Shown in pieces: positions 5,912-46,588 of a stretch of DNA of 64,000 bases (positions within the stretch are counted from its first letter, which is position 1; each line of letters opens with the position of its first letter). The DNA lies in NCBI RefSeq assembly GCF_002250505.1, contig NZ_NJGY01000003.1, forward strand, positions 568,660-632,659. Reading direction: 5' to 3'. Under the pieces are notes generated by a model. That model saw nothing but the letters and a program-made list of their open reading frames with translations, did not search any database and was not told the origin of the DNA. Made by a program: the position numbers and the translations under genes. Source of the DNA: Janthinobacterium sp. PC23-8 (lineage in GTDB: Bacteria > Pseudomonadota > Gammaproteobacteria > Burkholderiales > Burkholderiaceae_D).

Positions 5912-5913
5912 GT

Positions 5914-6473: not shown

Positions 6474-6491
6474 GCCTTCAGGAGAGAAAAC

Positions 6492-10810: not shown

Positions 10811-10821
10811 GCTGGTCTTCG

Positions 10822-10898: not shown

Positions 10899-11003
10899 GA
10901 ATGCAGTAATCAAGAAAGGGTCAACCGGTTATGACACCGCGAACTACTACCAAGCTTTGGGAGTGACGCTAGTCGATCGGGTTTGCTTTGTCTTAAAAAA
11001 GTG

Positions 11004-11030
11004 AAAAACGCGGCTAGTCCGCGTTTTTTT
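11004..11030 (+). terminator. Rho-independent terminator after tRNA-Val
   Basis: AAAAACGCGG-CTAGT-CCGCG followed by seven T residues, about 105 bases downstream of the tRNA and before thrS. It would end the tRNA transcript and leave thrS to a promoter of its own in 11031-11100. Confidence 0.85.
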
Positions 11031-11107
11031 GCGTCTGCGTTTTCCTTCGGTCTTACACCTCATACATTGCAGTTTTACCTGGCGCCAGCGCCGACATGGA
11101 GATCAAT

Positions 11108-13015: not shown

Positions 13016-13066
13016 CGAGGAAACTCGCTGCACGACCGTCCTATCAGATTTTTAAAGGAAATTACA

Positions 13067-13588: not shown

Positions 13589-13662
13589 GATACAATAGCG
13601 TTTTTGCTGTGGTTCGATGTCGATGCGCCAGGTTTGGCGCAAGACGTGATACCAGGCAGTAT

Positions 13663-13700
13663 TTTGAGCGGCCAGGCCAGCAATGTCCGGGCCGCTCAAA
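13663..13700 (+). promoter_or_regulatory. Stem-loop in the infC-rpmI leader (possible L20 control element)
   Basis: TTTGAGCGGCC at 13663-13673 pairs with GGCCGCTCAAA at 13690-13700 around a 16-base loop, within a 230-base spacer before rpmI. No T-run follows. In enterobacteria and Firmicutes L20 represses this operon by binding its leader. The element here is a candidate only. Confidence 0.35.
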
Positions 13701-13817
13701 CTGTAGTGGACTCGCATCCGCTGCACAAACATGTGAAAGCAGGCATCTAAGCGCAGCGTCGTGTTGCCACCTGCAATCCTGTTATAAATGGAGCTGTCCG
13801 TAAGAGGACAGATTGCT

Positions 13818-14015
13818 ATGCCTAAAATGAAGACCAAAAGCTCTGCGAAAAAACGTTTTCGCGTGCGTCCGGGTGGAACTGTCAAATGTGGTCATGCGTT
13901 CAAACGCCACATCCTGACCAAGAAAACCACCAAGCTGAAACGCGCTCTGCGCGGTACTACCAATGTCGCTGCGTCTGACGTGAAATCCGTCTACCGCATG
14001 ATGCCGACTGCTTAA
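13818..14015 (+). CDS. rpmI: 50S ribosomal protein L35
   Basis: A 65-residue basic protein starting [16 protein letters not shown], typical full-length L35, with AAGAGGA upstream of ATG 13818. It is a component of the large ribosomal subunit and lies 26 bases before rplT. Confidence 0.98.
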
Positions 14016-14041
14016 TCTCACACTCAATATAAGGAGTTACT

Positions 14042-14401
14042 ATGCCTAGAGTAAAACGTGGGGTTACAGCTCGTGCCCGTCATAAAAAGATTCTTGTTCA
14101 AGCTAAAGGCTACCGTGGTCGCCGCAGCCGTGTATACCGTGTTGCCAAGCAAGCAGTCATGCGCGCTGGCCAATACGCTTACCGCGATCGCCGCAACAAG
14201 AAACGCGTTTTCCGCCGCCTGTGGATCGCCCGTATCAACGCCGCTTCCCGTGAGCATGGCGTGACGTACAGCGTATTCATGAACGGTCTGAAAAAAGCAA
14301 ATATCGAACTGGACCGTAAAGTCCTGGCCGATATGGCTGTGATGGACAAGCCGGCATTCGCTGCGATTGTCAACGCAGTCAAGGCAAAAATCGCTGCGTA
14401 A
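14042..14401 (+). CDS. rplT: 50S ribosomal protein L20
   Basis: A 119-residue basic helical protein beginning [17 protein letters not shown], with the RNA-binding N-terminal extension ([35 protein letters not shown]) needed for early 50S assembly. AAGGAG precedes the ATG. It may also repress its operon through leader RNA. Confidence 0.98.
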
Positions 14402-14447
14402 GCACGGTCATTGCACAACGTCATCCGCAGGGTGACGTTATAAAGAG

Positions 14448-14491
14448 CGGGGCAGGGGTGTACAACCACCTTGTGCCCCGTTTCCGTTTTT
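14448..14491 (+). terminator. Rho-independent terminator or attenuator between rplT and pheS
   Basis: CGGGGCA (14448-14454) pairs with TGCCCCG (14474-14480), with an inner GGTG/CACC helix, followed by TTTCCGTTTTT. It lies 60 bases before pheS. Expression of pheST in other bacteria is attenuated, but I see no Phe-rich leader peptide here, so partial termination is the safer reading. Confidence 0.7.
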
Positions 14492-14549
14492 GATTGTTGG
14501 GTTCTGAATTACCAAATCCAGGATAGATTTCCAAAACAGGAAAAGCCGC

Positions 14550-15566
14550 ATGAACTCCCTAGAAGAACTCGTCGTCTCGGCCCAGGCTGACTTTATCGCC
14601 GCTGCAGACGCTGCCGCACTTGAAAACGCCAAGGCCCGCTACCTGGGCAAGACTGGCCAGATTACCGAAATGATGAAGGGCCTGGGCAAGCTCGACCCGG
14701 ACGCGCGCAAGGCGCAAGGCGCCCTGATCAATGCCGTCAAAGTGCGGATCGAAGACGCGCTGACCGCGCGCCGTGATGCCCTGGCCGATGCACAAATGCA
14801 AGGCCGTTTGAACGCCGAAGCGATCGACGTCACCATGCCAGGGCGTGGCCGCATGCCGGGCGGCATCCATCCGGTGATGCGCAGCTGGGAGCGGGTCGAG
14901 GAAATCTTCCGCTCCATCGGTTTCGACGTGGCCGACGGCCCCGAGATCGAAAATGACTGGACCAATTTCACGGCGCTCAACAGCCCTGAAAATCATCCGG
15001 CCCGTTCCATGCAAGACACGTTTTATATCGATGGTAACGACACCGACGGCAAGCCGCTGCTGCTGCGCACGCACACCAGCCCGATGCAGGTGCGCTATGC
15101 GCGCACGCATACGCCGCCGATCAAGGTCATCGCGCCGGGCCGCACCTACCGCGTCGACAGCGACGCCACCCATTCGCCGATGTTCCACCAGGTCGAAGGC
15201 CTGTGGATCGCCGAAGACATCAGCTTTGCCGACCTGAAGGGCGTGTACCTGAACTTCGTCAAGGCTTTCTTTGAAACCGACGACCTGCAAGTGCGTTTTC
15301 GCCCCTCGTATTTCCCGTTTACGGAACCGTCGGCCGAGATCGACATCGCTTTCGGTTCGGGCCCGTTGAAAGGCCGCTGGCTGGAAGTGTCGGGCGCCGG
15401 CCAGGTGCATCCGACCGTGGTGAAGAACTTCGGCCTGGACCCTGAGAAATTCATCGGCTTTGCTTTCGGCTCCGGCCTGGAACGCCTGACGATGCTGCGT
15501 TACGGCATCAACGACCTGCGCCTGTTCTATGAAGGCGATTTAAGGTTCCTGAAGCAATTCAATTAA
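14550..15566 (+). CDS. pheS: Phenylalanine--tRNA ligase alpha subunit
   Basis: A 338-residue class II synthetase subunit. An N-terminal coiled coil contacts tRNA (about residues 1-85). The catalytic core carries motif 1 ([21 protein letters not shown]), motif 2 ([19 protein letters not shown]) and motif 3 ([18 protein letters not shown]). It forms an alpha2-beta2 tetramer with the pheT product and makes Phe-tRNA. The start at 14550 matches the family. Confidence 0.98.
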
Positions 15567-15645
15567 GCGTTGTTCCGTATGATTCATGGTGCTTGAGCGC
15601 CGCTTGCGCTCGCGCCGTGAGCTTTGACCCTTTGAAGGCTTGATT

Positions 15646-18072
15646 ATGCAATTTTCCGAAAACTGGCTCCGTACCATGGTCGATCCGAAGATGACTTCGG
15701 ACGAACTGGCCCATCTGTTGACCATGTCCGGTCTGGAAGTCGAGGACGTCGATCCTGTCGCGCCTCCGTTCTCGAACGTGGTGGTGGGCCTGGTCCTGGA
15801 GATGGAGAAACATCCGAACGCCGACCGCCTGAACGTGTGCAAGGTCGATGTCGGCACCGGCACCATGCTCACCATCGTCTGCGGCGCGCCCAATGTGCGC
15901 CCGGGCCTGCGCGTGGTGTGCGCCAAGGCCGGCGCCGTGCTGCCGCCGGGCGTCGACGGCAAGCCGTTTGAAATCAAGGTTGGCCAGCTGCGTGGCGTCG
16001 AGTCGCAGGGCATGCTGTGCTCGGCGCGCGAGCTGAAATTGTCCGAAGAAAACGCTGGCTTGATGGAACTGCCGGACGACGCGCCGGTCGGCCAGAACTT
16101 CCGCGATTACTATGCCTTGAACGATTTGAAATTCACCATCAAGCTCACTCCCAACAAGGCGGACTGCCTGTCGGTGCTGGGCGTGGCGCGCGAAGTGTCG
16201 GCGCTGACCGGTGTGCCCCTGAATGCACCCCAGTTCAGTGTCGTTCCCGTATCGAGTGACGAAGTGCTGCCCGTCACAGTGAGCGCACCCGACCTGTGCG
16301 GCCGTTTCACGGGCCGCGTGATCCGTGGACTCAATGCAAAAGCCGCCACGCCGGACTGGATGAAGCAGCGCCTCGAGCGCAGCGGCCAGCGTCCGCTGTC
16401 GGCCCTGGTCGATATCTCGAACTACGTGATGCTGGAACTGGGCCGCCCGAGCCACGTGTTTGACCTGGCCAAGATCCACGGCAGCCTCGATATCCGCTGG
16501 GGCAAGGCTGGCGAATCCGTCAAGCTGTTGAACGGCAGCACGGTGGCCGTCGACGACTGGATCGGCGTGATCGCCGACGAGCAGGAAATCGAGTCGCTGG
16601 CCGGCATCATGGGCGGCGACGCCAGTTCCGTGTCGGACGATACCGACAGCATCTACCTGGAAGCGGCGTTCTGGTGGCCGAACGCGATTCAAGGCCGCGC
16701 GCGCCGTTTGAATTTTTCGACCGATGCCGCGCACCGTTTCGAGCGCGGCGTCGATTTTGCCACTACGGTCGAGCATATCGAACGCATCACGGCGTTGATC
16801 GTGGAAATTTGCGGCACGCCCGCCACCACCGTCGGCCCGGTCGACGACCATGTGGTCAACCTGCCGCAACGCAGCCCGGTGGCCATGCGGACGGCGCGCG
16901 CGCAAAAAGTGATCGGCGTGCCGCTCAACGATGACGTGATCGCCGATATCTTCACGCGCCTGGCGCTGCCGTTCACGTTGCTTGATGGCGTGTTCTCCGT
17001 CACTTCGCCCAGCTACCGTTTCGATATCGAAATCGAGGAAGACCTGATCGAGGAAGTGGCGCGCGTGTATGGCTTTGAAAACATCCCGGCTTTGCCGCCG
17101 GTGGCCGCCAACGTGATGCAGATCGCACCGGAAAACACGCGTTCGTTGTTTGCCGTGCGCCATGAACTGGCCGACCTGGGCTTCCAGGAAGTTGTCAACA
17201 TGAGCTTTGTCGACAGCGCCTGGGAGCGCGATTTCTCGGGTAATACCAATCCGATCAAATTGCAGAATCCGATTGCCAGCCAGATGAGCGTGATGCGCTC
17301 GTCCCTGATCGGCAGCCTGGTCGCCAATGTGCGCTACAACCTGAACCGCAAGACGGGCCGGGTGCGCATTTTTGAAGTGGGCGCCATTTACCAGCGCGAC
17401 GAGGGGGTACTCAACGGCGCCCTGTCGGTGGCCGGTTACGCCCAGCCGAAACGGGTCGCGGCCATGGCTTATGGTCCGGTGGCCGACGAGCAGTGGGGCC
17501 AGCCGGCGCGCACGGTCGACTTCTTCGACGTGAAAGCGGACCTGGAAGCGCTGTTTGCGCCCCAGGTGCTGCGTTTTACCAAGGCAGAACACCCGGCGCT
17601 GCATCCGGGCCGTTCGGCCAACGTCGAACTCGATGGCAAGGTCATCGGCTTTATCGGCGAATTGCACCCGCGCTGGATGCAAAAGTATGATCTGCCGCAA
17701 GCACCGGTCTTGTTCGAAGTCGATGCCGAAGCCTTGACGCGGCGTGTGGTGCCGGTGTATGCGGAAATTTCGAAATTCCCCGGCGCCAGCCGCGACCTGG
17801 CGGTGCTCGTCAAGCAGACTGTGGCGGCGCAGGATCTGCTCGATACCCTGCATGCGGCGGCGCAGGCCAGCGCTGCGGCAAGGATCGTGCAAGCCATTGT
17901 TTTATTTGATGAATATCGCGGAAAAGGGCTGGAAATGGATGAAAAAAGCCTTGCTTTCCGGATTAGCTTGCAAGATACTCAAAATACCCTGCAAGACGAT
18001 GTGGTTGACGGCCTGATGGCCGTGCTGATCGAGGCGGCAAAGCAGGGCCACGACGCGAAACTGCGTTCGTAA
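15646..18072 (+). CDS. pheT: Phenylalanine--tRNA ligase beta subunit
   Basis: ATG 15646 is used rather than TTG 15640; the product has 808 residues. Visible parts are the EMAP/tRNA-binding OB fold at about residues 40-150 ([26 protein letters not shown]), the B3/B4 editing domain, the B5 DNA-binding-like domain ([26 protein letters not shown]), and the C-terminal anticodon-binding ferredoxin fold. It edits Tyr-tRNA-Phe and binds tRNA. The 79-base spacer to pheS keeps it in the same operon. Confidence 0.98.
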
Positions 18073-29707: not shown

Positions 29708-32008
29708 ATGTTCCAATTGTTTGGTTTTGGCGGCGCCCGGTGTCCCCGTTGCGAGCACAAGAATGCCGCAGCGGCCGGGTATTGCGCGCAATGCGGCCTG
29801 GCGCTCGGTACACCCGGCAACGACACCGTGCTGCATGCCAACGAGTGGCGCCTCGCCGACGATCAGCTGGCCTTGTTCTTTGGCGTGCGCGAGCTGTCGT
29901 CGCTGTTTGGCGCCGCCGCCAGGCGCTTGCAGGTGCCGCAGCAGGCGCGCGCCTGGATCGTGCAGTCGGACGCTTTCACTTCGGTACCCTTTGGTGACTA
30001 TGACAGCGCCACTTTCTTTGCGCGCCTGCCGCAGCTGCTGCCGGCGCGTCCGGCCGAAGTGCTGATCGCCCGCGCCGCGCCGCTAAGCCTCACGTTCGAC
30101 CTGCCGGCGCTGGCCAGCACCGAGCAGTTGCAGATCGCCGCCACCTTCCAGGTCGATATTTCGCTGGGCCAGCCCGATGCGTTTGCACGCCAGTTCATGC
30201 GTGCGCCGGGCGCCGTTACCCTGGCCCATCTGCATGCCTTGCTGCTGCCCTCGGTACGCCAGATCGCGCTGGAATTTACCGGCAGCCGCGCGCTGCGCGA
30301 GATGGACGCCAACGCCGACCTGCGGCCGCAGTTCAACGAGCGCCTGCAGTCGTCGCTGACGCAGCGCCTGGCGCCATCAGGCCTGAGCGTTCCGCGCGTG
30401 GAGACGCTGGCGCTGCGCCACGACAAGCTGGCCGGGGATGACAGCTGCATCGGCACCTTGTGGCTGGGCGCCCCGCAGACACCCGGCGGTGCCGATGCGC
30501 TGGAACGCGGCAAGCAGCTCGACCAGCTCTACGATGAAGAAGAGCTGCAGCGCATCGCGCGCGAAGCATTGACACTGCGCCATGCGCAGCGCCGGATGGA
30601 ACTGCAGCAGGACGCAAAAGTGGGGCAGGCCGAACTGGCGCACCAGGAAGCGGAGCGCCTGCAAGCGCTGCGCGGGCGCCAGATCGACCTGTACGGCCGC
30701 ATCCTGGAAGCAAAGTCGCAGCGCCAGGCGCTCGACCATGGCGCCGCCGTGGTGCTGGAAGAACTCAAGCAGGAACTGGCCAAGAAGGGGGCCACACACG
30801 CCGATGAGGCGGCCCAATGGCAGCATCTGCGCGCGCTGGCGGCCATCAAGATGCGCAGCGAGCTGGAACTGTCGCAGCTGGACGGGCGCGAACAGCTGCA
30901 GCTGGCGCAGCAGCGCTTCACGCACCAGGTGCATCTGCAAGCGATTGCGCAGCAGGTGGAAAGCGCGCTGCTGATCGATGACGAGGCGGGCCGCCGCGCC
31001 CAGCTGGCGCGCCTGCACAAGACCGAGCAGGATGCGGCCCAGCGCGAGGCGCAGCTGGAAGCGGAGCAGCACAAGGCCGCCTGGCAGGGCGCCGTGCTGG
31101 CCACCGCCGCGCGCAAGCGCGAAGCGGAGCGGGTGCAGGAATGGGAAGACCAGATGCAGCTGGCGCGCCAGCGCGAACTGCTGCGCGCCGAAGCGCACAA
31201 GGACGAAGCGGCGCAGGTGCAGGCGGCCGAGATCGCCGAAAAAGTCGCCGTGCTGCGCCGTGGCGGCGCGCGTGACGACGCGATCGCCCAGCAGGAAAAA
31301 CTGCTGCGCACCATCGAGGCTGACGGGGTCCATGCGCGCCAGTTGCAGCAGCAGGCGCACCAGGCGCAGCTCGACGCCCTGGCCGTCGAAGAACAGCGCC
31401 AGCAGCTGCGCCAGCTGGAGCAGGAAGCGCAATGGCAGCGCGACTTGCTGGCCATGTCGCAGCAGCGCGAACACGATTACGCGCGCTGGAAGAGCGACTA
31501 CGAAGCGCTGGTGGCGCAGCAGGCGCATGCGGCCGAACTGGCGCGCATCGATATCGACCGCATCGACAAAATCGGCACCCTGAGCGATACGGGCAAGGTG
31601 GCGATGGCGGCCGCGCCGAATGCCAGCGTGCTGGCGCAGGTGCTGAAAACCCAGCTGCAGGCCGGCATGAGCGCCGAGCAGATCCACGCGCTGGCGGCAC
31701 TGGCGGCGGCCGAAAACAGCATCGCGCCGCTGGACGCCATGCGCATGGCGCAGGAGGGCGTGGCGCAGGAACGCGGCTACCTGGAAGCGCAGGCCGAACG
31801 CGAACGGCGCCAGCAGCTCGATCTGATCGCCCTGCAGAACGCGGCGCACAGCCATGGCCTGAACGCGCAGGCGCAGTTGGGCGTGGCGGTGGCGCAGGCC
31901 GTTGCCGGCAGCACGCCGGCGCGCTGCTGCAGCAATGGCCATGCGTTGCGCTCCGGTCATCCGGAAGACAAATTCTGCGCCGCCTGTGGCGTGGCGCTGC
32001 AGCCTTGA
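29708..32008 (+). CDS. Zinc-ribbon/SPFH-like/coiled-coil protein
   Basis: ATG 29708 follows AGGAG at seven bases; the product has 766 residues. An N-terminal zinc ribbon has two Cys pairs (CPRCEHKNAAAAGYCAQCG, about residues 12-30). A region with the helix/strand pattern of SPFH/band-7 proteins follows (about 60-255, including FQVDISLGQPDAFARQF and LRPQFNERLQSSLTQRLAPSGLSV). Then comes a long Gln/Glu/Ala/Arg-rich coiled coil (about 270-650), and a C-terminal second zinc ribbon (CCSNGHALRSGHPEDKFCAACG). No membrane helix is seen, so it probably forms a cytoplasmic scaffold. The next gene encodes a kinase and starts 19 bases downstream. The SPFH call is inference. Confidence 0.65.
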   Translation: MFQLFGFGGARCPRCEHKNAAAAGYCAQCGLALGTPGNDTVLHANEWRLADDQLALFFGVRELSSLFGAAARRLQVPQQARAWIVQSDAFTSVPFGDYDSATFFARLPQLLPARPAEVLIARAAPLSLTFDLPALASTEQLQIAATFQVDISLGQPDAFARQFMRAPGAVTLAHLHALLLPSVRQIALEFTGSRALREMDANADLRPQFNERLQSSLTQRLAPSGLSVPRVETLALRHDKLAGDDSCIGTLWLGAPQTPGGADALERGKQLDQLYDEEELQRIAREALTLRHAQRRMELQQDAKVGQAELAHQEAERLQALRGRQIDLYGRILEAKSQRQALDHGAAVVLEELKQELAKKGATHADEAAQWQHLRALAAIKMRSELELSQLDGREQLQLAQQRFTHQVHLQAIAQQVESALLIDDEAGRRAQLARLHKTEQDAAQREAQLEAEQHKAAWQGAVLATAARKREAERVQEWEDQMQLARQRELLRAEAHKDEAAQVQAAEIAEKVAVLRRGGARDDAIAQQEKLLRTIEADGVHARQLQQQAHQAQLDALAVEEQRQQLRQLEQEAQWQRDLLAMSQQREHDYARWKSDYEALVAQQAHAAELARIDIDRIDKIGTLSDTGKVAMAAAPNASVLAQVLKTQLQAGMSAEQIHALAALAAAENSIAPLDAMRMAQEGVAQERGYLEAQAERERRQQLDLIALQNAAHSHGLNAQAQLGVAVAQAVAGSTPARCCSNGHALRSGHPEDKFCAACGVALQP

Positions 32009-32027
32009 TCGATAGCCAGTACCCCAG

Positions 32028-34331
32028 ATGATGCAAAAAGCACGAGACAAACTGCGAGAGTTGCGCGCCCTGCACGACGACGGCCTGCTCAGCGAGCAGG
32101 AATTCGAACGCCGCAAGAACGCCATCCTCGACGCCGAATACGCGCCGCCCGGCGCCGCGCCGGCGCCAGTCACGCTGCCGGTGCGCCAGGGCACGGAGCT
32201 GGGCTTCATGACGGGCCAGGAGATCGGCCCGCAGAACCGCCGCTACCGCCTGGAACGCCTGATCGGCACGGGCGGCATGGGGCAGGTGTGGCAGGCCACC
32301 GACCTGGCCACGCACGCCGAGTTGGGCAGCAGCGAAATGGTCGCGCTCAAAATATTGCCGCCACAGCTGACGCAAAGCGCCACCCATGCCCGGCTCCTGA
32401 TCGAGGAAGCGACGCAGGCGCGCAAGCTGGCCCATGAAAACATCGTGCGCGTCTACGAGTGGGCGCAGGACCCGGCCACCTCGAGCTACTTCATCATCAT
32501 GGAATGCCTCGATGGCGAGGACCTGGAACACTACCTGGGCCGCCAGGGCCCGTTGCCGCTGGCGGCCGTGCAGGCATTGCTGCGGCCGGTGGCCGACGCG
32601 CTGGCGTATGCCTGGGAAAAGCACAAGCTGGTGCACCGCGACATCAAGCCGGGCAACGTTTTTTTGACCAGCAAGGGCGACGTCAAGCTGCTCGACTATG
32701 GCATTGCCTCGCGCGTGCGCAATGCCGGCAGCAGCCTGGGGCTGGAAACGCCGAACGCCGGCACGGAAGGCTATCGCGCACCCGAGGCTGGCGCCCACCA
32801 GCGCCAGCCCAGCCCGCGCCTGGACGTGTATGCGGTGGCGGTGATGATCTACCAGATGCTCGAAGGGCGCATGCCATTCGACGGCGTGCGCACGGCCGGG
32901 CAATTGCCATCGAAGCCGCAGGCGCTGAAGGCGGCGCAGTGGCAGCAGCTGCAGAACGGTTTTTCAATGACGGCCGAATTGCGTCCGCAATCGGTGCTGG
33001 CGCTGCTGGAAATGCTCGAGCGCGCCGCCGGGCCGTCGCCCGAGGAACTGGCCGAACAGGCGCGCCAGGAACGCGCGCGCGCGGCCGAGCAGCAAAAGCA
33101 GGCGGCGCTGGCGGCCGAACAGGCCAGGGAAGAGGCGCGCCGGCGCGAAGAGGAACTGGAGCAGCGAAGAAAGGCCGAAGCGCAGGCGGCGGCGCTGGAA
33201 AAGCAGCGTCTGGACAAGCTGCGCCGCGAGCAGGAAGTGCAGCGCCAGTTCGAAGCGGAAGAGGCGCGCAAGCTGCGCAAGGAAGCGCTGCGCGGCCAGC
33301 TGCGCGCACGGCGCGAAGCCGACGCCGCCACCGCCTTGCAGGAACACTTGCAGCTGCAGCGCAAGGCGATCCAGGCAAAAGCCGAAGCGGCCTACCGCGC
33401 CGAGCAGGAAAGGGCGCGCAAGGCGCAAGCGAGCCGCGCCGCCGTGGCGGCTGCGCCTGCCGCAGTTGTAGCCGAAGCACCGGCGGCGGAGCCGCTCGCG
33501 CCAGTGGCCGCGCCGACCGGCCTGCTGCGCGACGATTTTCTCGACGGTTCCGGCCAGGGGCCGGAACTGGTGTGCCTGCCCAGCGGCCGCTTCCAGATGG
33601 GCGCGCATGAGGAAGAGCACAAGGCGGCGCTGAAGGCCGGCTCGCAGCAGGGCTGGCTGGAGCGCGAAAAGCCGCAGCACTGGGTCGGCATCGAGCGCGG
33701 TTTTGCGCTGGCGCTGCACCCGGTCAGCGTGGGCGAGTGGCGCGCCTTCGTCAAGGCCACCGGCTGGGAACGGGGCCTTTCGGAAACCGACTGGGACAAT
33801 CCCGGCTTCGTGCAGAACGACCAGCATCCGGTGGTCGGCGTGAGCTGGAATGACGCCCAGCGCTATCTGTCCTGGCTGGGCGAAAAGACCGGCCAGGTGT
33901 ATCGCCTGCCGAGCGAAGCGGAATGGGAATACGCCTGCCGCGCCGGCACCCGCAGCGCCTTCAATGTCGGCGACACCATCAGCACCGAGCAGGCCAATTT
34001 CGATGGCCTGTATGTGTATGACGGCGGTGCGCGCGGCCAGTATCGTGGCGGCACCAGCGCGCGCGGCACTTTCCAGCCCAATGCCTGGGGCCTGTACGAC
34101 ATGCATGGCAATGTGTGGGAATGGGTGCAGGACATCGTGCACGACAACTATGACGGCGCGCCGGTCGACGGCAGCGCCTGGGAGGACGGCGGCGACACCA
34201 GCCGGCGCATCCTGCGCGGCGGCTCCTGGCTGTACCATCCGCGCTATCTGCGTTCGGCCATCCGCAACGGCTTTTCCATCGTGCTGTCGAACGATATCGT
34301 CGGCTTCCGGGTGGCGCGCCAGCTCGCGTGA
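32028..34331 (+). CDS. Ser/Thr protein kinase-coiled coil-FGE-like fusion
   Basis: A 767-residue protein. It has a SHOCT-like N-terminal helix pair (LRELRALHDDGLLSEQEFERRKNAIL) and a Hanks-type kinase at about residues 73-335 with glycine loop GTGGMGQVW, catalytic Lys108, HRDIKPGN (203-210) and DYG (223-225) in place of DFG. An Arg/Glu/Ala coiled coil covers about 338-475. A C-terminal formylglycine-generating-enzyme/SUMF1-like domain (about 505-767) has PVSVGEWRAFV, GVSWNDAQRYLSWL, YRLPSEAEWEYACRAGT, NVWEWVQD and LRGGSW. The catalytic Cys pair of true FGE is missing near the end. The kinase looks active. It probably acts with the upstream zinc-ribbon scaffold. Confidence 0.9.
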   Translation: MMQKARDKLRELRALHDDGLLSEQEFERRKNAILDAEYAPPGAAPAPVTLPVRQGTELGFMTGQEIGPQNRRYRLERLIGTGGMGQVWQATDLATHAELGSSEMVALKILPPQLTQSATHARLLIEEATQARKLAHENIVRVYEWAQDPATSSYFIIMECLDGEDLEHYLGRQGPLPLAAVQALLRPVADALAYAWEKHKLVHRDIKPGNVFLTSKGDVKLLDYGIASRVRNAGSSLGLETPNAGTEGYRAPEAGAHQRQPSPRLDVYAVAVMIYQMLEGRMPFDGVRTAGQLPSKPQALKAAQWQQLQNGFSMTAELRPQSVLALLEMLERAAGPSPEELAEQARQERARAAEQQKQAALAAEQAREEARRREEELEQRRKAEAQAAALEKQRLDKLRREQEVQRQFEAEEARKLRKEALRGQLRARREADAATALQEHLQLQRKAIQAKAEAAYRAEQERARKAQASRAAVAAAPAAVVAEAPAAEPLAPVAAPTGLLRDDFLDGSGQGPELVCLPSGRFQMGAHEEEHKAALKAGSQQGWLEREKPQHWVGIERGFALALHPVSVGEWRAFVKATGWERGLSETDWDNPGFVQNDQHPVVGVSWNDAQRYLSWLGEKTGQVYRLPSEAEWEYACRAGTRSAFNVGDTISTEQANFDGLYVYDGGARGQYRGGTSARGTFQPNAWGLYDMHGNVWEWVQDIVHDNYDGAPVDGSAWEDGGDTSRRILRGGSWLYHPRYLRSAIRNGFSIVLSNDIVGFRVARQLA

Positions 34332-34816: not shown

Positions 34817-35712
34817 GCGCGGCCATCCTGAAAAGCCACGAAAAAGACCTGGGCGGCGGCTTCGTGGTGCGCCGTTTGCTGCCCTCAAGCGTCAAGCAGA
34901 GCGTCGGCCCCTTTATCTTTTTCGACCATTTCGGCCCGATCGACGTGGCGCCCGACGCCAACCACGACGTGCGCCCGCATCCGCATATTGGCCTGGCTAC
35001 CGTTACCTATCTGTTCGAAGGCGCGATGGACCACCGCGACAGCATCGGCTCGTACCAGCGCATCGAGCCGGGTGCCATCAACTGGATGACGGCCGGGCGC
35101 GGCATCGTCCATTCCGAGCGCACGCCGCCGGACCTGGCTGGCCGGCCGCACCGTACGCACGGCCTGCAATTGTGGGCCGCGCTGCCCAAGGCGAACGAGG
35201 AAGACGAACCGAGTTTCACGCATACGCCGCAGGCCGATATCCCGGTGGTAAAGCTCGACGGCGCGCTGGTGAAAGTGTTGATCGGCACGGCCTTTGGCCA
35301 GACGTCGCCGGTGCGCACCTATATGCAAACCGTGTATCTCGACGTGGCGCTGCAGGCAGGCCAGGAACTGCGGCTTGAGGGCTTGCCGGCCGAGGCGGCC
35401 ATCTATCCGATCAGTGGCGCGCTGCTGGTCGATGGCGTGGCGCTGGCGCCGCACACCATGGCGCTGCTCGGCTCTGGCGCCGCGCCGCTGGTAGCGGCGG
35501 GCGAGGGCGGCCCGGCGCAGTTTGTGGTGATCGGTGGCGAGCCGCTCGACGGTCCGCGGTTCATTTTCTGGAACTTCGTTTCGTCGAGCAAGGAGCGGCT
35601 GGCGCAGGCCGGCGAAGACTGGAGCGCCCAGCGCATGGGGCAGGTGCCGGGCGAGACGGAATTCATTGCGCTGCCCAAGCCACCGGCCAGGCCAGTGCCG
35701 CAGTTCCTGTAA
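34813..35712 (+). CDS. Pirin family protein
   Basis: A 299-residue bicupin. The metal-binding cupin-1 ligands lie in HPHIGLATVTYLFEGAMDHRDSIGS and the conserved WMTAGRGIVHSER box follows. The C-terminal cupin (about 175-290) is the usual degenerate one. Bacterial pirins bind Fe/Ni; some oxidise quercetin and others modulate metabolic enzymes. It is co-translated with the OsmC-type gene, which suggests a redox-stress role. Confidence 0.95.
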   Translation: MSAAILKSHEKDLGGGFVVRRLLPSSVKQSVGPFIFFDHFGPIDVAPDANHDVRPHPHIGLATVTYLFEGAMDHRDSIGSYQRIEPGAINWMTAGRGIVHSERTPPDLAGRPHRTHGLQLWAALPKANEEDEPSFTHTPQADIPVVKLDGALVKVLIGTAFGQTSPVRTYMQTVYLDVALQAGQELRLEGLPAEAAIYPISGALLVDGVALAPHTMALLGSGAAPLVAAGEGGPAQFVVIGGEPLDGPRFIFWNFVSSSKERLAQAGEDWSAQRMGQVPGETEFIALPKPPARPVPQFL

Positions 35713-35720
35713 GCGCCTGC

Positions 35721-36314
35721 TCAGGGACCGTCGCGCCAGTGCCTGAACCAGCTTGCCAGGCCATCCCGGGCGGCGAACATCCAGTCGGTCGACCACAGCG
35801 GCCAGCGCTGCACGAAGGCGGTGGCGCGCTGCAAATGGATGCCATCGAAAAACACATGGTCGGCCACGATGGTGGCGGCCAGCCAGGCAGCGCCGATCAC
35901 GATCAGGTCGTGGCGGCCGCTCTTCCACCAGCGCAGCGAGTGGCGGCGGATAATCCACGGCACGCCCAGCGGATTGGGCCAGTCGGCCAGCAGATGCATG
36001 ATGCCGCCGGCGGCAAAGCCGAACAGCGGCGGCGCCCACAGATGATGGGGCAGTTGCAGATAGGTGTAGACCAGCAGGGCAATCCAGGCCAGGCCCCAGT
36101 GGGTCCAGGTGCGGTGCGTGATCCACAGCCGGCGCGTGGGCGCCCACCATGCCACTTCCAGCCAGTCGGGCGCGGTGCCGCCCAGCGCGCCCATCGCGAA
36201 CGCCAACATGCTCAGCAGTTGATAGGGACCGCCGGCGTCCGCGTGCGCGACCAGCGCTGCGGCGATCACGCCGGCAGCCCAACCAGTCGCATGATGCGCT
36301 TTATTTGAAGCCAT
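35721..36314 (-). CDS. YdjM/DUF457-like membrane-bound metal-dependent hydrolase
   Basis: ATG 36314 gives 197 residues. The family pattern of His/Asp residues near membrane helices is visible: NKAHHATGWAAGV, GGTAPDWLE, THRTWTHW and GIMHLLADWPNPLGVPW. Four or so membrane segments can be drawn. Members are inner-membrane proteins related to E. coli YdjM, some LexA-regulated; catalytic function is not well defined. It is convergent with the pirin gene (eight-base gap). Confidence 0.8.
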   Translation of the reverse strand: MASNKAHHATGWAAGVIAAALVAHADAGGPYQLLSMLAFAMGALGGTAPDWLEVAWWAPTRRLWITHRTWTHWGLAWIALLVYTYLQLPHHLWAPPLFGFAAGGIMHLLADWPNPLGVPWIIRRHSLRWWKSGRHDLIVIGAAWLAATIVADHVFFDGIHLQRATAFVQRWPLWSTDWMFAARDGLASWFRHWRDGP

Positions 36315-36696: not shown

Positions 36697-38268
36697 TCAG
36701 GCGGTGAGCGCCGCGCTGTCGCACAGGCTGGCGCCTTCGGTGCGGATGATCCAGCATTCGGGATACGGTTCGCTGGCGAAGCGGTTGTGGCGGGCGAAGC
36801 TGGCGAGCTTGTCGAGCGCGGTGGCTGGCGAGAGCGCGGTTTCCTTGCCGCTGGCGCAATCGAGATGCCAGAAGCCGCCGTTGCGGTGAAACAGCATCGG
36901 CAGCGCCGCCGCCTGTGGCGCCAGGGTGTGCGGCGCCGGCACCACGACCGGGCGCGCTTCGGGCAGCAGCAGGTAAAAGCATTCCGCCTGGGCGCCCTGG
37001 TCGAGGCGGTGCAGGATCACGCCGTGCTGCAAGATGGCCGATACGCCCAGCACCACGATGCCCTTGATACTGGCCGTCAGTTCGATGCGCATGCCCTGGC
37101 GCAGCGCCACGGGCTTGTGTTTGCCTGGCCATACGCCGTCGAGCAGCACGCCATAGCGCGACACGTCTTCGATATCGAAACCTTGCGCGCTGCGGCGGAT
37201 GACCGCATGGCGGCCGGACAGGCGGCGCGTCAGGCCGTTGTTGTCCTGGCCGTCGATGCTGAAATGGCTGAGCAGCACATCGGCTTCCGGATCGACCAGC
37301 TCGAAGCGGCCCAGCATGCATTCTTCCAGTGCGAACAGGCGGATCTGGCGCTGTTCGCCCGCTTCCGGCGCCGCGTTGACGATGCAGGCCGCCACGCTGG
37401 GGTGCGGATGGCACTCGCTGGCGGCGGGCAGATCGACTTCGATCAGTTCCTCGTCCCAGGCGATGGTGGTAAAACCCATGTCGATCTTGCCTTGCGGCGC
37501 GGACAGGTCGACGTGGGCGATGCCGGCATTGCGCGCCGTGACGTCGAGATTGCAGCCGTCGCCGCCGGTCACGCGCGCAATCGATGCGTCGTCGGCCATC
37601 ACGCGCACGTTTTTATGGGTGCTGAGGAAAATCTGGTGGATTTCGGTCAGGGTGGCGTCGCGGCGCGGCACCAGGATGACAAAGGTACACACCCATTTGC
37701 GCGCCGCCGCGCCGTCCAGGTGGCTCAGTACGTCCACCTCGATCTGGTATTGCCCGTGTTCCTTGTTGCGCGATGAAAACTCGACAAACACGGGTCGCCA
37801 GTCGCCGCGCGTGGTGCGCACCACCTCGTGCCGGATCTGGCCGCGCGGGATCAGGTCCGAACGCAGGCGCAAGGTCAATTGCGGCGCACAGTGGGCGTCC
37901 AGGCCGCGCAGTTCCATTTTCAGGGTTTGCCGCCCGCCAGCGGCGCGTGGATCGAAGCCGCTGATATGCAGATGGGTAGCGACCGGCGTGCCGGCGGCCT
38001 GGGCTGGCGTAACTGGAGCGACGGCGGGGCGCATGCGCGGCATGCTGACCGAATTGACCGGGCGTGATACGGCCAGCGGCAGCGAAACCACGGACGCAGG
38101 CACTCCCGCCGTTGCCGATTGCTCGGAACGGGCGCTGCGCAAGGCGCTCAGCAGGTCAAAGCTGGTGGGCGCGAGGACTGGCTGCGGGTGATTGCCCGCG
38201 CAGACCTGCTCACCAGGCAAGACCCAGAACGTACAATGCGGGTGCTCCGGATTGCTGCATTTTTTCAT
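36697..38268 (-). CDS. FHA domain protein with N-terminal Cys-rich motif
   Basis: A 523-residue protein. The first 25 residues hold CSNPEHPHC and a later Cys, a possible zinc knuckle. Residues about 97-200 and 205-290 look like beta-sandwich modules. The FHA domain is at about 308-400 with LGRFEL (Arg321), LSGRHAVIRR (Ser351, Arg353, His354) and VSRYGVLLDG. The last 80 residues are unassigned. FHA domains bind phosphothreonine, and a Ser/Thr kinase and a PP2C phosphatase lie within 5 kb, so it is a plausible reader of that signalling. Confidence 0.85.
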   Translation of the reverse strand: MKKCSNPEHPHCTFWVLPGEQVCAGNHPQPVLAPTSFDLLSALRSARSEQSATAGVPASVVSLPLAVSRPVNSVSMPRMRPAVAPVTPAQAAGTPVATHLHISGFDPRAAGGRQTLKMELRGLDAHCAPQLTLRLRSDLIPRGQIRHEVVRTTRGDWRPVFVEFSSRNKEHGQYQIEVDVLSHLDGAAARKWVCTFVILVPRRDATLTEIHQIFLSTHKNVRVMADDASIARVTGGDGCNLDVTARNAGIAHVDLSAPQGKIDMGFTTIAWDEELIEVDLPAASECHPHPSVAACIVNAAPEAGEQRQIRLFALEECMLGRFELVDPEADVLLSHFSIDGQDNNGLTRRLSGRHAVIRRSAQGFDIEDVSRYGVLLDGVWPGKHKPVALRQGMRIELTASIKGIVVLGVSAILQHGVILHRLDQGAQAECFYLLLPEARPVVVPAPHTLAPQAAALPMLFHRNGGFWHLDCASGKETALSPATALDKLASFARHNRFASEPYPECWIIRTEGASLCDSAALTA

Positions 38269-38740: not shown

Positions 38741-39160
38741 ATGCCCGTCCTTCGCCTGCCGCAGTTCGCCCTTGCCTATATGACCACCCTGGCCGCCTTT
38801 CTGGTCATCGACGCCATGTGGCTGGGCGTGGTGATGAAACAACGCTATGCCGCCTGGCTGGGGCCGTTGATGCTGGAGCAGCCCAAGCTGTTGGCGGCCG
38901 GCCTGTTCTACCTGCTGTACGTGGCGGGCTTGCTGGTGTTTGCGGTGCTGCCGGCGCTGCGCGAGCGCAACTGGCGCGCCGCCGCCTGGCGTGCTGCCTT
39001 GCTGGGACTGGTGTCCTACGGCACCTACGACCTGACCAATCACGCCACGCTGAAAGGCTGGCCGCTGGCGCTGACCCTGACCGACCTGGCCTGGGGCGCC
39101 GTGCTGTCTTGCCTGGCGGCCGTGGCAGGCTATGCGGCGGCCAGCCGGCTCAAGGCTTGA
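38741..39160 (+). CDS. DUF2177 family membrane protein
   Basis: A 139-residue protein with four membrane helices and the family hallmarks LVIDAMWLGVVMKQRY near the start and YGTYDLTNHATLKGWP in the second half. Function is unknown. The 3' end overlaps the convergent phosphatase gene by 11 bases. Confidence 0.9.
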   Translation: MPVLRLPQFALAYMTTLAAFLVIDAMWLGVVMKQRYAAWLGPLMLEQPKLLAAGLFYLLYVAGLLVFAVLPALRERNWRAAAWRAALLGLVSYGTYDLTNHATLKGWPLALTLTDLAWGAVLSCLAAVAGYAAASRLKA

Positions 39161-40076
39161 CGCGCAGCGCCAGCAGGGTCAGGTTATCGCTGTGCAAGCC
39201 TTCGGGAGGGTGCGACAGGAAGTCGTCGAACAAGGCCGTTGTCGCCTGCGCCGCCGTACGCCCCGCGCACAGGGCGGGCCAGCGGGCCAGCGTGCTGGCA
39301 GGATCGGGGCAGGACCAGAAGCCGTCGCTGGCCAGCAAGTAGAGCGCATCGCGGCGCAGGCGCAGCGCACGGCGGTCGCCCAGATGGGCCAGGAAGGGCG
39401 GCAGGTTACCCTCGTCCAACGCATGCAGGGCGGTGCCCAGCACCTGCGGATCGACGATGACATTGCCCAATATAAAAGCTTGCGCAATTTGCGGTTGGTG
39501 TTCGCCGTAGACCCGCCTGCGCCATTGCGGTTCGTCGATCACGCCATGCATGGCGTACACGGTGGCCGGCACATGGTCGACCGTCAATGCTGTGACGGCG
39601 CCATCGGCCACTTCATACAGGCGCGAATCGCCCACGTGGTAGAGCAGCGGCGCTTGCTGCGGCGCCATTTCCAGCAAGGTCAGGGTGGTGCCGGGTGGGC
39701 GGGCCTGCGGGTCGCCCGTGTCGAAGGCGGCTTGCAGGCGTGCATGCAACTGGTCCAGCTCGCGCGCCAGTGTGTCAGGGTCGACACAGGCCGGTATCGC
39801 CAGCAATCCCTGCACGGTGGCTTCGGCCGCCTCGCGGCCATGGCCGTGGCCGCCCATGCCATCGAGCACGGCCAGGCGCACGTGGCCCTCTGGCCAGCCG
39901 GCGACCTGGCCGCGCCACGGCGTTTGCCCGACCAGGCAGGCGGCGTGGCCTTTGCTGTCGATCAGCAGGAAATTGTCCTGGTTTTCGCGCCGCGCCATGG
40001 GGCCCGCGCCCACGCTGCTGCCGGCGGCGGCGTCCAGTGCTGGTCCGAAGTCGAGTTCGTCGTTGATAAAGTGCAT
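39150..40076 (-). CDS. PP2C-family Ser/Thr phosphatase
   Basis: A 308-residue soluble phosphatase. PP2C motifs run in order: RRENQDNFLLID (motif 1), AVLDGMGGHGHGREAAE (motif 2, metal Asp and Gly), GTTLTLLEM, YHVGDSRLYEV, LLASDGFWSC and SDNLTLLAL (final metal Asp). It would remove phosphate from Ser/Thr in an Mn/Mg-dependent way and is the natural antagonist of the kinase at 32028. A divergent promoter region lies upstream. Confidence 0.93.
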   Translation of the reverse strand: MHFINDELDFGPALDAAAGSSVGAGPMARRENQDNFLLIDSKGHAACLVGQTPWRGQVAGWPEGHVRLAVLDGMGGHGHGREAAEATVQGLLAIPACVDPDTLARELDQLHARLQAAFDTGDPQARPPGTTLTLLEMAPQQAPLLYHVGDSRLYEVADGAVTALTVDHVPATVYAMHGVIDEPQWRRRVYGEHQPQIAQAFILGNVIVDPQVLGTALHALDEGNLPPFLAHLGDRRALRLRRDALYLLASDGFWSCPDPASTLARWPALCAGRTAAQATTALFDDFLSHPPEGLHSDNLTLLALRVKP

Positions 40077-42981: not shown

Positions 42982-44319
42982 CTACTGCGACCAGCCCTGG
43001 AAATTGTCGGGGTGGTCGTGGCGGATACCCCACCAGGGCAAGTAGGCGTGGTGCTCGCCGCGCGCGCGAAACCAGGGTTTGCCGTGATCGATGGGGCGCA
43101 CCCTGGCCGGCGGCGACACCAGCACGCCGGTCAGGCTGCCACTGTCGCTGGTGCCGGCCACCAGCACCGGCTTGCCCAGGTGATTGGCGTATCCGATCGC
43201 CAGCGCCACATTGGTCAGCGCCGTGCCGGCGCCCATTTCGCCCAGCAGGGCAGGCGTGTTGAAGGTTTGCGGCAGGAAATCAAAGCCGGGCACTTCCAGG
43301 GTCAGCGCATGCGCCAGTTGGCCGATCCGGTCCGATGATGAGGGCAGGGTATGGTTGGCGTCGTGGATCACATAGCCGATCTCCTCTTCCGTCTTGCCGC
43401 CATTGCGCGCCGCCTGCGCAAAGGCCGACTGCCAGGCCTGCACCGCGCGCGGCGGCAGCTCCTTGGTCAGGGCAAAGTCGGCGGCGTTTTTGGTGGCCGG
43501 ATAGCCGACCCAGGCCAGCGCCGCGCGCTCGGTCTGGTAGTGTGGGCCGGCCAGCACCAGCAGCACCAGGTTTTCGTTGATTTGCGCAGGTTTCGGGCGG
43601 CTCGGCGCATCCCAGTTCATTACCCAGACGGTTTCGTTCGGATTGGCTTCCAGATAGGCGAGCGCAGCTGTCAGCGAAGTAAAGCCGGCGTTGTTGCCGC
43701 CCATGGTGATGCGCACATCGGGCGCGGTGGCGCGGGACCAGACAGTGGGGAACGCTGGATTGCCGATGTCGAAATTACTGATAATTTCGTCCCGTACAGT
43801 GTGATGGACTTCGGTTGGATCGAATTTGCCTTCTGGCAGGGCATATTCCACGCGTATACCGGCCAACTCGCGCCAGGTCTGCTTTTTATGGCGTGGGTAG
43901 ACATGATAAAAATAGCTGGGACTGGAGAAATAGATATCATGGAAATTGGTCATCAATTCTTCCAAATATTTTTGGTGATAGCCTTTGAATGTTTCCGTGC
44001 CCCATAGATCATGGGCAATCGGTGCAACCGCTTGCAAAGTACTGAATCCTTTGGGGTCTGTCCTGACCATATCGTCGTTTTTATTGGGGCTGGCCAAACC
44101 CAAGGTCCACAACAATTGCCATTCGGTAGAATAGTCGCGCCGCTGCAAGGGATTGAGCCACTGCAGGCCGACGACCTGCGCCTGAAATGGTGGCTTTGGT
44201 GTTGCCGCTTCTGCCGATGCTATTGCAGGCTGAACTGGCTTTTCGGTGGTGGTACAGGCTGACAATAAAAAGAAAAGCGCCAGGCCAGCGAGGATGGGGA
44301 TGGCAATAAAGCGTTTCAT
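42982..44319 (-). CDS. Lipoprotein partner of the T6SS lipase (Tla3-like, DUF2875-type)
   Basis: ATG 44319 has GGAG six bases upstream and opens a lipoprotein signal (MKRFIAIPILAGLALFFLLSAC, lipobox LSAC), giving 445 residues. The body has WLNPLQRRDYSTEWQLLWTLGL and a C-terminal half with GAGTALTNVALAIGYANHLGKPVLVAGTSDSGS that resembles a thiolase-like fold. Its position directly downstream of a Tle3-type lipase matches Tla3 of Pseudomonas aeruginosa, the adaptor that loads Tle3 onto VgrG. The frame is open to ATG 44457, so a longer form is possible. Family assignment is from memory and moderate; an immunity role cannot be excluded. Confidence 0.65.
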   Translation of the reverse strand: MKRFIAIPILAGLALFFLLSACTTTEKPVQPAIASAEAATPKPPFQAQVVGLQWLNPLQRRDYSTEWQLLWTLGLASPNKNDDMVRTDPKGFSTLQAVAPIAHDLWGTETFKGYHQKYLEELMTNFHDIYFSSPSYFYHVYPRHKKQTWRELAGIRVEYALPEGKFDPTEVHHTVRDEIISNFDIGNPAFPTVWSRATAPDVRITMGGNNAGFTSLTAALAYLEANPNETVWVMNWDAPSRPKPAQINENLVLLVLAGPHYQTERAALAWVGYPATKNAADFALTKELPPRAVQAWQSAFAQAARNGGKTEEEIGYVIHDANHTLPSSSDRIGQLAHALTLEVPGFDFLPQTFNTPALLGEMGAGTALTNVALAIGYANHLGKPVLVAGTSDSGSLTGVLVSPPARVRPIDHGKPWFRARGEHHAYLPWWGIRHDHPDNFQGWSQ

Positions 44320-44457
44320 GATTTCTCCATTTGACGAGATACCGGAATCACCTTCTCTGCCTTGCCATGACAGCCACAGCGCGGCGGCGACCAGCAGGGC
44401 AACCATCAAACATAACAAAAAACGCTTGCCAGGGGAGCTGTTCAAGTCAGGCATCAT
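44320..44457 (-). other. In-frame upstream extension with a second hydrophobic helix
   Basis: These 46 codons are open, in frame with the lipoprotein gene, and begin ATGATG overlapping the lipase stop by 11 bases. They encode KRFLLCLMVALLVAAALWLSW, another signal-like helix. Either a longer membrane-anchored product is made by coupling to the lipase, or this is the head of a deleted duplicate. Confidence 0.5.
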
Positions 44458-46588
44458 CTGTCCCCAGAGCCGATATGCCAGTCGGAGCTGGACTTATAAC
44501 AACGTTCTGGCGCTCATCAACTATCTTTGCAGGTTTCCTGGCAAGACTGTCTTTGGCATTTGCCCATTCGAACACCGATACATCTTTGAACTTTCCTTTG
44601 TTGAAATACTCAAAAAATTCTTTGTTATTGTCAGCAGCGCTCAAACCTTTTAATAATGTCCAATCCGCCGCCACCCTCAGTGTGCGAAGCTCCTCCTGCC
44701 TGATCGTGCATACCCCCACCGCCACGTCGTAGGCCAGCGCTTTTTCCGCATGCTCGGGATTGGTCATGATGGTCGAGTGATCGGTGGCGTGGGTGTCGAT
44801 ATTGGCCACCAGGTAGTTGCGGATTTCCCTGGTGCGCCAGGACTGGAACGCGCTGGACGCCTCCTCAGGATTGTCCACCCCCGTGACGGCGGGGTCGCCT
44901 TTTTTCACCAGGCTGTCGCGCCGGGCTTGCATGCGCAACATGCCGTTCTGTTCGTAGCGCAATGCCGCTTCGGTTTCCGCGTCGCCCTTGCCCAGCGGGC
45001 GATGCGATGCATACGCATCGTTGGCTTCGGCAGAGCGCTCCTTGTGCAGGGAGTCGGACGGTGCGTCGCGCTCCTCGTCAAACTGCTCGCTGACAGCGTC
45101 AAAACGTTTTGCCCGGGGGCGGAAGGTGGTGGGCAGCCCGGGCGCCTTCAGCGGCAGCAGCCAGGGATGGGGCGGCAGGGCGTTGATGCGCGTGCGTGCC
45201 GCTTTGGACAGCACGATCATCACCGGTGCGAACAAAAAGGTCAGTATCTTGCGGCCGATGCCCTGGCTGGCGCGCAAGCCTTTTTCGATCGAGTATTCGG
45301 CGACCAGCGAGCGCGGGTGCCAGAAATCGAGGCTGTCCGGCGTCAAGGGCTGGCCGTCGCGCTGCCAGATATCGTAGTCTTCTTCGTTTTCCTGCCCCAC
45401 CGGATGGTTCTGCGCGAAGACGCGCTGGGTGAAGACGCCTTCGCCGCCGGTATCGGCGATCTCGCGGGCCGACATGCCGCGCCAGCCGATGCCCTGGACG
45501 GGCGTGGCGGAAATCACCTGGTCGTGCGGATTACAGTACAAGGTGACGCGGCCACAGGTGGAGCCGTTCAGGCCGTAGGCCGCCCGATCAAGCGCCGCTT
45601 CATAACCATCCTCGGACCTGGATTTCTTGTTGGCCGTGTATTTGTCGACCAGCGCGGCATCCTGTTGCAGGGCCTGGCGCGTGCGCAGGATGTCGAAAAA
45701 TGCTTTCAAGGTCCTGGTGCGCGCCTCGTACTTCTGCCGGCCCGTGTTGCCGTGCTCATCCTTCAAATGGCCGCTGACCCAGTTCTCCGTAAAATTCTTG
45801 TCCAGCAGGCTGTACGGCGGATTGCACAGCACATAGCTGTCGGCCACGGCGTCGGCACCCAGCGTCTCGCCAAGGAAGGCGGCGGCCATCGCCACCATAT
45901 TGCCCTGGCTGTGGCAGACGATGGTGACGGGTACGTCCTTCTGGCAGTCGCGTATCGAGCGCACCAGCCGCGCCAGGCGCCAGGCGGCAAACACGAAGTA
46001 CGGCCGTGGCGGGCAGGCGTAGACTTGCCGGTCATCGGTGGGATTCATGTGCTGGATATGCATCCACAAGAACAGCTGTTCCGACAGTCCCTGGTTCCAC
46101 AAGTCGGGCAGGGCGCTGCAGCCATTGGCAAACGGGCCGCCGCCCCAGTAATTCTTTTCGTTCAGGTAGATGCCTTCGCCGAATTCCTGCAACTCTGCAC
46201 TGCTGGCTTTATAACCCCAGCGGAAACGGATCACGGGCGAATTGGCGTCATCTGTCTGCAGGAAGGTGCTGGCGCTGCGCCTGGGATTGAGAAAGCCGTC
46301 GTCGCTCAATTCGCGCTCGTAGCGCGCAGGCTTCATTTGCCCGCCGGCGGGGCCGGGGATGGCCAGGTCTTCGTTGCGGCGTTTCAGGCGCTGGTTCAAG
46401 CCTTCGCACAAACCCGCTTCTGCCGCTTCATACCATTCGCCATCGGAGTTGACGCCGTGCACGAAGATGATTATGCCGGGCCGTTGCAGGCGCTGGACGA
46501 TCCTGAGATCGCCGTGGCTGAACAAGGCATGACCGTCGGCTTCACCGAGCAGTATGCAATCGGCGTCAAGCTTGAACTCATTCCACAT
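44447..46588 (-). CDS. tle3: T6SS phospholipase effector, Tle3 family (DUF3274)
   Basis: A 713-residue alpha/beta hydrolase. The oxyanion/HG motif is IIIFVHGVNSDGEWYE (residues 39-54) and the nucleophile elbow is VTIVCHSQGNMVAMAAAF, with Ser227. Tle3 enzymes also carry a long C-terminal DUF3274 region, matching the helical Arg/Glu-rich region seen here from about residue 450. They hydrolyse phospholipids of target cells after delivery by VgrG. No signal peptide is present, as expected for T6SS cargo. No VgrG, Hcp or PAAR gene is within the window, so this is an orphan effector locus. Confidence 0.82.
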   Translation of the reverse strand: MWNEFKLDADCILLGEADGHALFSHGDLRIVQRLQRPGIIIFVHGVNSDGEWYEAAEAGLCEGLNQRLKRRNEDLAIPGPAGGQMKPARYERELSDDGFLNPRRSASTFLQTDDANSPVIRFRWGYKASSAELQEFGEGIYLNEKNYWGGGPFANGCSALPDLWNQGLSEQLFLWMHIQHMNPTDDRQVYACPPRPYFVFAAWRLARLVRSIRDCQKDVPVTIVCHSQGNMVAMAAAFLGETLGADAVADSYVLCNPPYSLLDKNFTENWVSGHLKDEHGNTGRQKYEARTRTLKAFFDILRTRQALQQDAALVDKYTANKKSRSEDGYEAALDRAAYGLNGSTCGRVTLYCNPHDQVISATPVQGIGWRGMSAREIADTGGEGVFTQRVFAQNHPVGQENEEDYDIWQRDGQPLTPDSLDFWHPRSLVAEYSIEKGLRASQGIGRKILTFLFAPVMIVLSKAARTRINALPPHPWLLPLKAPGLPTTFRPRAKRFDAVSEQFDEERDAPSDSLHKERSAEANDAYASHRPLGKGDAETEAALRYEQNGMLRMQARRDSLVKKGDPAVTGVDNPEEASSAFQSWRTREIRNYLVANIDTHATDHSTIMTNPEHAEKALAYDVAVGVCTIRQEELRTLRVAADWTLLKGLSAADNNKEFFEYFNKGKFKDVSVFEWANAKDSLARKPAKIVDERQNVVISPAPTGISALGTDDA

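Follow-up and report, generated by a model that had tools for sequence, protein, structure and literature searches.

A 64,000-nucleotide stretch of the Janthinobacterium sp. PC23-8 genome (contig NZ_NJGY01000003.1, positions 568,660 to 632,659; hereafter the window) encodes a zinc-ribbon/SPFH protein, P1, and a SHOCT–kinase fusion with a domain like the formylglycine-generating enzyme (FGE), P2, which are co-inherited with an FHA-domain protein and, in most genomes tested, with a dedicated PP2C-type phosphatase. Our preferred reading, on which our confidence is evenly balanced, is that the locus forms one cytoplasmic phospho-signalling module composed of a scaffold, a writer, a reader and an eraser, with an output that probably lies in the envelope.

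The family sample was an even draw of 195 Oxalobacteraceae genomes, to which all family counts refer, and presence was scored at cut-offs of our own choice (E 1e-3 for P1, E 1e-60 for P2, and E 1e-20 for the FHA protein and for u453, the marker of a second operon described below). P1 was found in 58 of these genomes and P2 in the identical 58; the two genes are adjacent in 57 of them and are also neighbours in all 55 loci of a first locus set, in which several genomes are represented twice. The FHA protein was found in 59 genomes, namely the same 58 and G044, an assembly 68% complete. The dedicated PP2C, scored at E 1e-148 or better, is present in 25 of the 35 genomes tested for it. An earlier note on this DNA had described a two-gene unit at 29708–34331; the coordinates are exact, the genes lie 19 nt apart and their co-occurrence has held up, but the unit is not limited to two genes, since the FHA reader and, in most tested genomes, the PP2C belong to it and many relatives carry further genes.

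Domain structure of the four proteins

P1 (29708–32008, + strand, 766 aa, with AGGAG upstream) consists of a zinc ribbon, an SPFH region, a long helix and a second zinc ribbon. The N-terminal ribbon and SPFH region named in the earlier note are supported by profile matches among orthologues more than by the window copy. The N-terminal ribbon (29741–29797, residues 12–30) of the window copy matches Pfam Zn_Ribbon_1 at E 0.004, which is below threshold; zinc-ribbon models match 16–17 of 23 orthologues. The SPFH/Band 7-like region (29915–30442, about residues 70–245, limits approximate and set by eye) has no Pfam match in the window copy; its membership of the SPFH/Band 7 family comes through the orthologues, 7 of 23 of which match the Band_7/SPFH profile (best Pfam E 5.5e-8). 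The C-terminal zinc-ribbon-like motif (31925–32005, residues 740–766) was recognised by eye in the alignment, where it is absent from the four g32 orthologues and L070. The region between (30515–31777, about residues 270–690) is rich in Gln, Glu and Ala and favours helix: residues 280–690 contain 18 Pro and Gly among 411 residues and are rich in A, Q, E, R and L. The closest named relatives are in Janthinobacterium, P1 being 94% identical to that of J. psychrotolerans. P1 and P2 are both under purifying selection, with dN/dS of 0.12–0.19 when compared with the Janthinobacterium relatives L031 and L034.

P2 (32028–34331, + strand, 767 aa) combines, as the earlier note had it, SHOCT, an intact Hanks kinase and an FGE-like domain, all with Pfam matches above the cut-offs. 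SHOCT occupies residues 7–34 (32046–32129; E 2.6e-7) and is followed by the kinase (32244–32903; Pkinase residues 73–292; E 3.7e-41), a charged helix-favouring linker (33030–33452; residues 335–475, with 4 Pro and Gly in 141 residues and, like the P1 helix, rich in A, Q, E, R and L) and the FGE-sulfatase-like domain, which has a C-type-lectin fold (33558–34319; residues 511–764; E 4.2e-56). The kinase has the Pkinase fold with the P-loop, Lys, Glu, HRD, DFG and APE elements of the Hanks-type Ser/Thr class: K108, E127, H203-R204-D205, K207, N210, D223, G225 and APE are invariant in 17 of 17 aligned orthologues, and DYG replaces DFG in two rows, the window copy among them. No PASTA domain was found in P2 in the Pfam scan. 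Neither P1 nor P2 has a membrane segment in any of 28 rows each, scanned for a 19-residue stretch with a mean hydropathy of 1.8 or more.

The FGE-like domain has no Cys at two alignment positions, which we take to be those of the FGE catalytic pair, in any of the 13 FGE-bearing rows (in L072 a Cys is present elsewhere nearby). P2 does not therefore qualify as a formylglycine-generating enzyme, and the sequence makes a non-catalytic role in binding or sensing the likelier one.

The FHA protein (36697–38268, − strand, 523 aa) has an N-terminal zinc-finger-like motif (38188–38259; C4, H9, C12, C23 and H27, in 16 of 19 rows), a beta-sandwich region and an FHA domain (37078–37284, residues 329–397; Pfam E 1e-5). 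Its structure model resembles FHA domains, and G320, R321, S351 and H354 are invariant in 19 of 19 rows, giving the FHA fold with the GR and SxxH core of a phospho-reader. The phosphatase (39150–40076, − strand, 308 aa) matches Pfam SpoIIE and PP2C_2 below threshold and NCBIfam Stp1 at E 1.4e-12, far under that model's cut-off. Its ENQDN, DGMGG, GDS, DG and DN motifs are invariant in 14 of 14 rows, so that the metal-binding Asp residues are in place. A [DES]ETALP tail ends 11 of 18 PP2C rows (L053, L056, L058–L063 and L065–L067) and is absent in the five Janthinobacterium rows; it is a possible candidate for a phospho-threonine docking site of the FHA protein.

Neighbourhood, second operon and a caspase-bearing relative

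The module is present in all 13 Janthinobacterium genomes. In the neighbourhood set of 19 named Janthinobacterium loci (L031–L048 and L051, of which L032 and L039 end early), a WXXGXW gene and small secreted-like genes precede P1 in 19 of 19, OsmC and pirin genes follow P2 in all 17 that reach far enough, and both flanks are the same in the 17 that have both. Neither 72,556 plasmids nor 50,697 phages yielded a match to P1, and plasmids yielded none to the FHA protein. Searches beyond the family were made by draw. Among 369 genomes of the class, P1 matched its own genome and gave four marginal short matches; among 399 genomes of the order, the FHA protein gave six full-length matches within the same family (its own included) and three elsewhere that covered the FHA domain only.

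Elsewhere in the family the arrangement varies. In the four g32 genomes the genes lie in the order FHA, P1, P2 on one strand. No more than 0.3 kb separates the FHA gene from P1 in L068, L069 and L071; in L064 the distance is 3.4 kb, with an opposite-strand gene between. In G001, P2, the FHA gene and a u453-u215-u409-u390-P1 cluster stand at three distant sites of one contig. That all three are kept despite this dispersal speaks for a functional connection and not for linkage alone.

A second operon is carried by 37 of the 58 module genomes. It usually lies just before P1 and comprises genes for a penicillin-binding-protein (PBP) transpeptidase, for members of three unnamed families and for a Lon-fold protein. 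Its marker, u453, occurs in 37 of the 195 genomes, all within the module's 58, and is accompanied by the PBP in 17 of 18 loci. SxxK, SxN and KTG are invariant in 17 of 17 PBPs, and one membrane segment is predicted in 16 of the 17 rows. The Lon-like protein u390, found in relatives only, has the fold of the Lon proteolytic domain (S16-like); its Ser296 and Lys342, presumably the Ser–Lys dyad judging by their motif, are invariant in 16 of 16 rows and are kept in the relative described next.

This relative, G330, belongs to another Burkholderiales family and was found through u453 (E 1.1e-31), which matched two of 180 order genomes, the other belonging to the window's own family. Its island (L099, G330:C2:36000-55900, mainly 1677–17434, − strand) adjoins a tyrosine integrase and holds u453', u215', u409', u390' and P1', together with an FtsK/SpoIIIE-type ATPase, small helical proteins, an FGE protein and an SH3 protein in which a membrane segment can be seen by eye. 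P1' is 35% identical to P1 over 573 columns (E 1e-82) and has ribbons at both ends; u390' is 33% identical to u390. A fusion of 1344 aa begins with a caspase domain and has an FGE domain at its C terminus. Within 40 kb in G330 there was no match to the kinase part of P2, the FHA protein, the PP2C or the PBP at E 0.01, and G330 is not among the nine FHA-matching genomes of the 399-genome draw, its membership in which was judged by its number. Thus the P1 platform accompanies a kinase–FGE protein in one lineage and, in a single case, a caspase–FGE protein in another; relatives of this kind may be commoner than these limited draws show.

Some variation was seen around the Janthinobacterium loci. 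In L044 there is an insertion further upstream of P1. In L031, about 4 kb with genes resembling a TonB receptor and a sigma factor (L031:16015-20025, seen by eye in this locus) separate the pirin gene from the YdjM-like gene. Judged by spacing, 13 of the 17 Janthinobacterium loci with both genes have the same gap, and the window has none (35712–35721).

Proposed mechanism and alternatives

In the preferred reading of a phospho-signalling module, P1 would oligomerise as an SPFH-type scaffold, probably at the inner membrane, and P2 would dock there, with SHOCT and its long helix making the contact to P1. The lectin-fold FGE domain at the C terminus of P2 would sense a ligand and control the kinase, which would phosphorylate threonines on the scaffold or on client proteins. 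The zinc-finger/FHA protein would read these phospho-threonines and recruit clients, and the PP2C phosphatase would reset the switch. In many relatives the clients would include the dedicated cell-wall transpeptidase and the Lon-like protein; the presence of these genes makes envelope (peptidoglycan) homeostasis under stress the most likely output. What points to the envelope is mainly the adjacent PBP in 17 loci, taken with a link between kinases and PBPs known from elsewhere. In actinobacteria, a kinase, a PP2C, FHA proteins and a transpeptidase share one neighbourhood, in the order pknA/pknB-pstP-fha-rodA-pbpA. In works cited by PMC6213207, PknB reportedly phosphorylates PBPA and recruits the FHA protein GarA. 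The module lies outside this group, because its kinase has no PASTA domain or membrane segment; it differs further in its scaffold and Lon-like protein, its Gram-negative hosts and the lack of a PBP match in the window's genome.

Several observations weigh against this reading. The dedicated PP2C is absent from 10 of the 35 genomes tested (five g40 genomes, four g32 genomes and G001), and the four g32 genomes, in which P2 stops after the kinase (464–480 aa), retain P1, P2 and the FHA protein without the FGE domain or the dedicated PP2C; neither is therefore indispensable. The FHA match contains one stop in G001, G052, G075 and G132, and the P1 match in G001 is weak (33% identity). A crude comparison with shuffled sequences was negative for heptad periodicity in the helical regions of both P1 and P2. 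The argument from paired coiled coils, which the earlier note had offered for one complex, is thus not supported: the regions are Pro/Gly-poor and favour helix, and 'long helix' is the safer term. Association of P1 with the membrane is suggested only by its resemblance to the SPFH family. As to output, the window's genome gave no PBP match in a search that had no positive control, u453 was found in none of the 13 Janthinobacterium genomes in a search that returned positives elsewhere, and L063 and L089 carry u453 and P1 with no PBP match. The case for an envelope output is therefore weakest in Janthinobacterium, and the output in the window's genome may differ from that in PBP-bearing relatives.

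The alternative that fares best is a conflict system, for anti-phage defence or kin protection, in which P1 would be the platform, the C-terminal FGE/lectin domain a sensor of invaders and the N-terminal kinase or caspase an exchangeable effector. The G330 island, with its integrase, its counterparts of P1, u453, u215, u409 and u390, its FtsK-like ATPase and its caspase–FGE fusion, fits this, as do its PADLOC matches: SspH (E 2e-18) and mad8 (E 5e-17) for the ATPase and a caspase model (E 6e-7) for the fusion. The conflict systems proposed in the relevant sections of Kaur et al. 2020 (PMC7159879) and the DGR paper (PMC10907252) repeatedly contain kinases, caspases and FGE domains at the C terminus. 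There, FGE domains are treated as a lectin-fold subtype and as proposed sensors, and in the cyanobacterial systems those sections cover, the other domains always lie N-terminal of the FGE domain. The C-terminal FGE domain, the varied N-terminal partners and the caspase variant in G330 are points of likeness; the central SPFH scaffold is a point of difference. Their MoxR-vWA, DO-GTPase-GAP1 and EACC1-caspase core pairs were not seen among the window proteins, five L050 and four L053 upstream genes and ten L099 proteins, although Pfam may lack models for several of these families. In PADLOC, P2 matches kinase models only, among the 25 of 31 matched families listed, and P1, the FHA protein and the upstream genes of relatives have no match. 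Just one caspase-bearing relative was seen, and the 43% similarity of its FGE domain to that of P2 may be ordinary for so large a family. Moreover, the module is not patchy in Janthinobacterium, and the lack of plasmid and phage matches for P1 and of plasmid matches for the FHA protein also speaks against this alternative. We consider the conflict reading unlikely, though a serious contender.

An ordinary defence island was rejected, since the module's presence throughout Janthinobacterium and its constant neighbours argue against one. Of the roles listed in the earlier note (signalling, envelope stress or defence), defence is thus an improbable everyday function, whereas the distant relative in G330, whose island is flanked by an integrase and includes a caspase, leaves room for a conflict ancestry. 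In the preferred reading, the signalling module would be assembled from components that conflict systems also use. More tentatively, a new modular system may stand on the SPFH/double-zinc-ribbon platform, with the Lon-like protein and the three unnamed families as its core, the lectin-fold FGE domain as an interchangeable sensor, and an effector swapped by lineage: a kinase with FHA protein and PP2C, domesticated in Oxalobacteraceae, and elsewhere a caspase carried by a mobile island.

A second alternative, to which we give little credence, is that the module represents a cytoplasmic form of the threonine-phosphorylation pathway of the type VI secretion system (T6SS), which comprises a kinase, a phosphatase, an FHA protein and an activator, TagR, that is FGE-like. 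TssK is found in 54 of the 58 module genomes and in 47 of the 137 others, the contig carries a TssK gene some 17 kb ahead of the window, and the window itself encodes a Tle3-type T6SS phospholipase effector (44447–46588, − strand; Pfam E 2.9e-106). Yet 47 genomes with TssK have no P1–P2, and four module genomes have no TssK match; these four are the same ones whose P2 lacks the FGE domain. The association is confounded with lineage, and we read it as such. The scanned neighbours of the module included no recognisable T6SS core gene. PpkA, PppA, Fha1 and TagR, as outlined in part of PMC12607579, have the same activities in outline, but PpkA has a membrane segment and P2 has none. Membership of the PpkA, PppA, Fha1 and TagQRST pathway was rejected, the kinase being neither transmembrane nor confined to genomes with a T6SS; as an analogy it is kept, with a Hanks kinase, a phosphatase, an FHA reader and an FGE-like component acting together. 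The module differs in having the FGE domain fused to the kinase and in its SPFH scaffold.

Equally improbable is a scaffold for membrane stress, of the YdjI/PspA type, that has acquired a kinase, phosphorylation being secondary. P1 does resemble YdjI in outline: in the portion of PMC8581546 dealing with pspA-ydjGHI, YdjI of Bacillus subtilis is described as a soluble member of the SPFH family that has a zinc-finger motif close to the C terminus and brings PspA to the membrane. P1 differs in its ribbons at both ends and its kinase partner; moreover, P2 and the FHA protein are kept as strictly as P1, and the kinase site is invariant. The archaeal ESCRT neighbourhoods described in part of PMC10936438 include an SPFH–coiled-coil–zinc-ribbon protein and, elsewhere, a kinase, a phosphatase and an FHA protein, but these parts sit in separate archaeal loci and the module is bacterial. 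No ESCRT domain was found among the scanned proteins, the genome as a whole lying outside that search.

Full-text literature searches, which covered mostly literature available without subscription, found no system of this make-up, as the earlier note had supposed; a conserved kinase–phosphatase–FHA circuit with an SPFH scaffold is apparently undescribed. The phospho-signalling module joins an SPFH scaffold with Hanks-kinase signalling in bacteria, the set being strictly inherited together, and provides a first foothold on several families that have no Pfam model. A kinase in one lineage and a caspase in another, beside the same platform, offer a natural comparison for the exchange of parts between signalling and cell-death machinery. 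Janthinobacterium, with scaffold, kinase, reader and phosphatase and no second operon, would be the minimal, tractable version.

Two further observations concern the rest of the window. After the Tle3 gene, 42982–44457 (− strand) encodes a 491 aa protein without a Pfam match, possibly the Tle3 immunity protein. Finally, a phage tail tube protein is encoded at 61642–62847 (+ strand; Pfam Phage_tube_2, E 2.1e-26), and a prophage or tail-like element may start close to the window's right-hand end.
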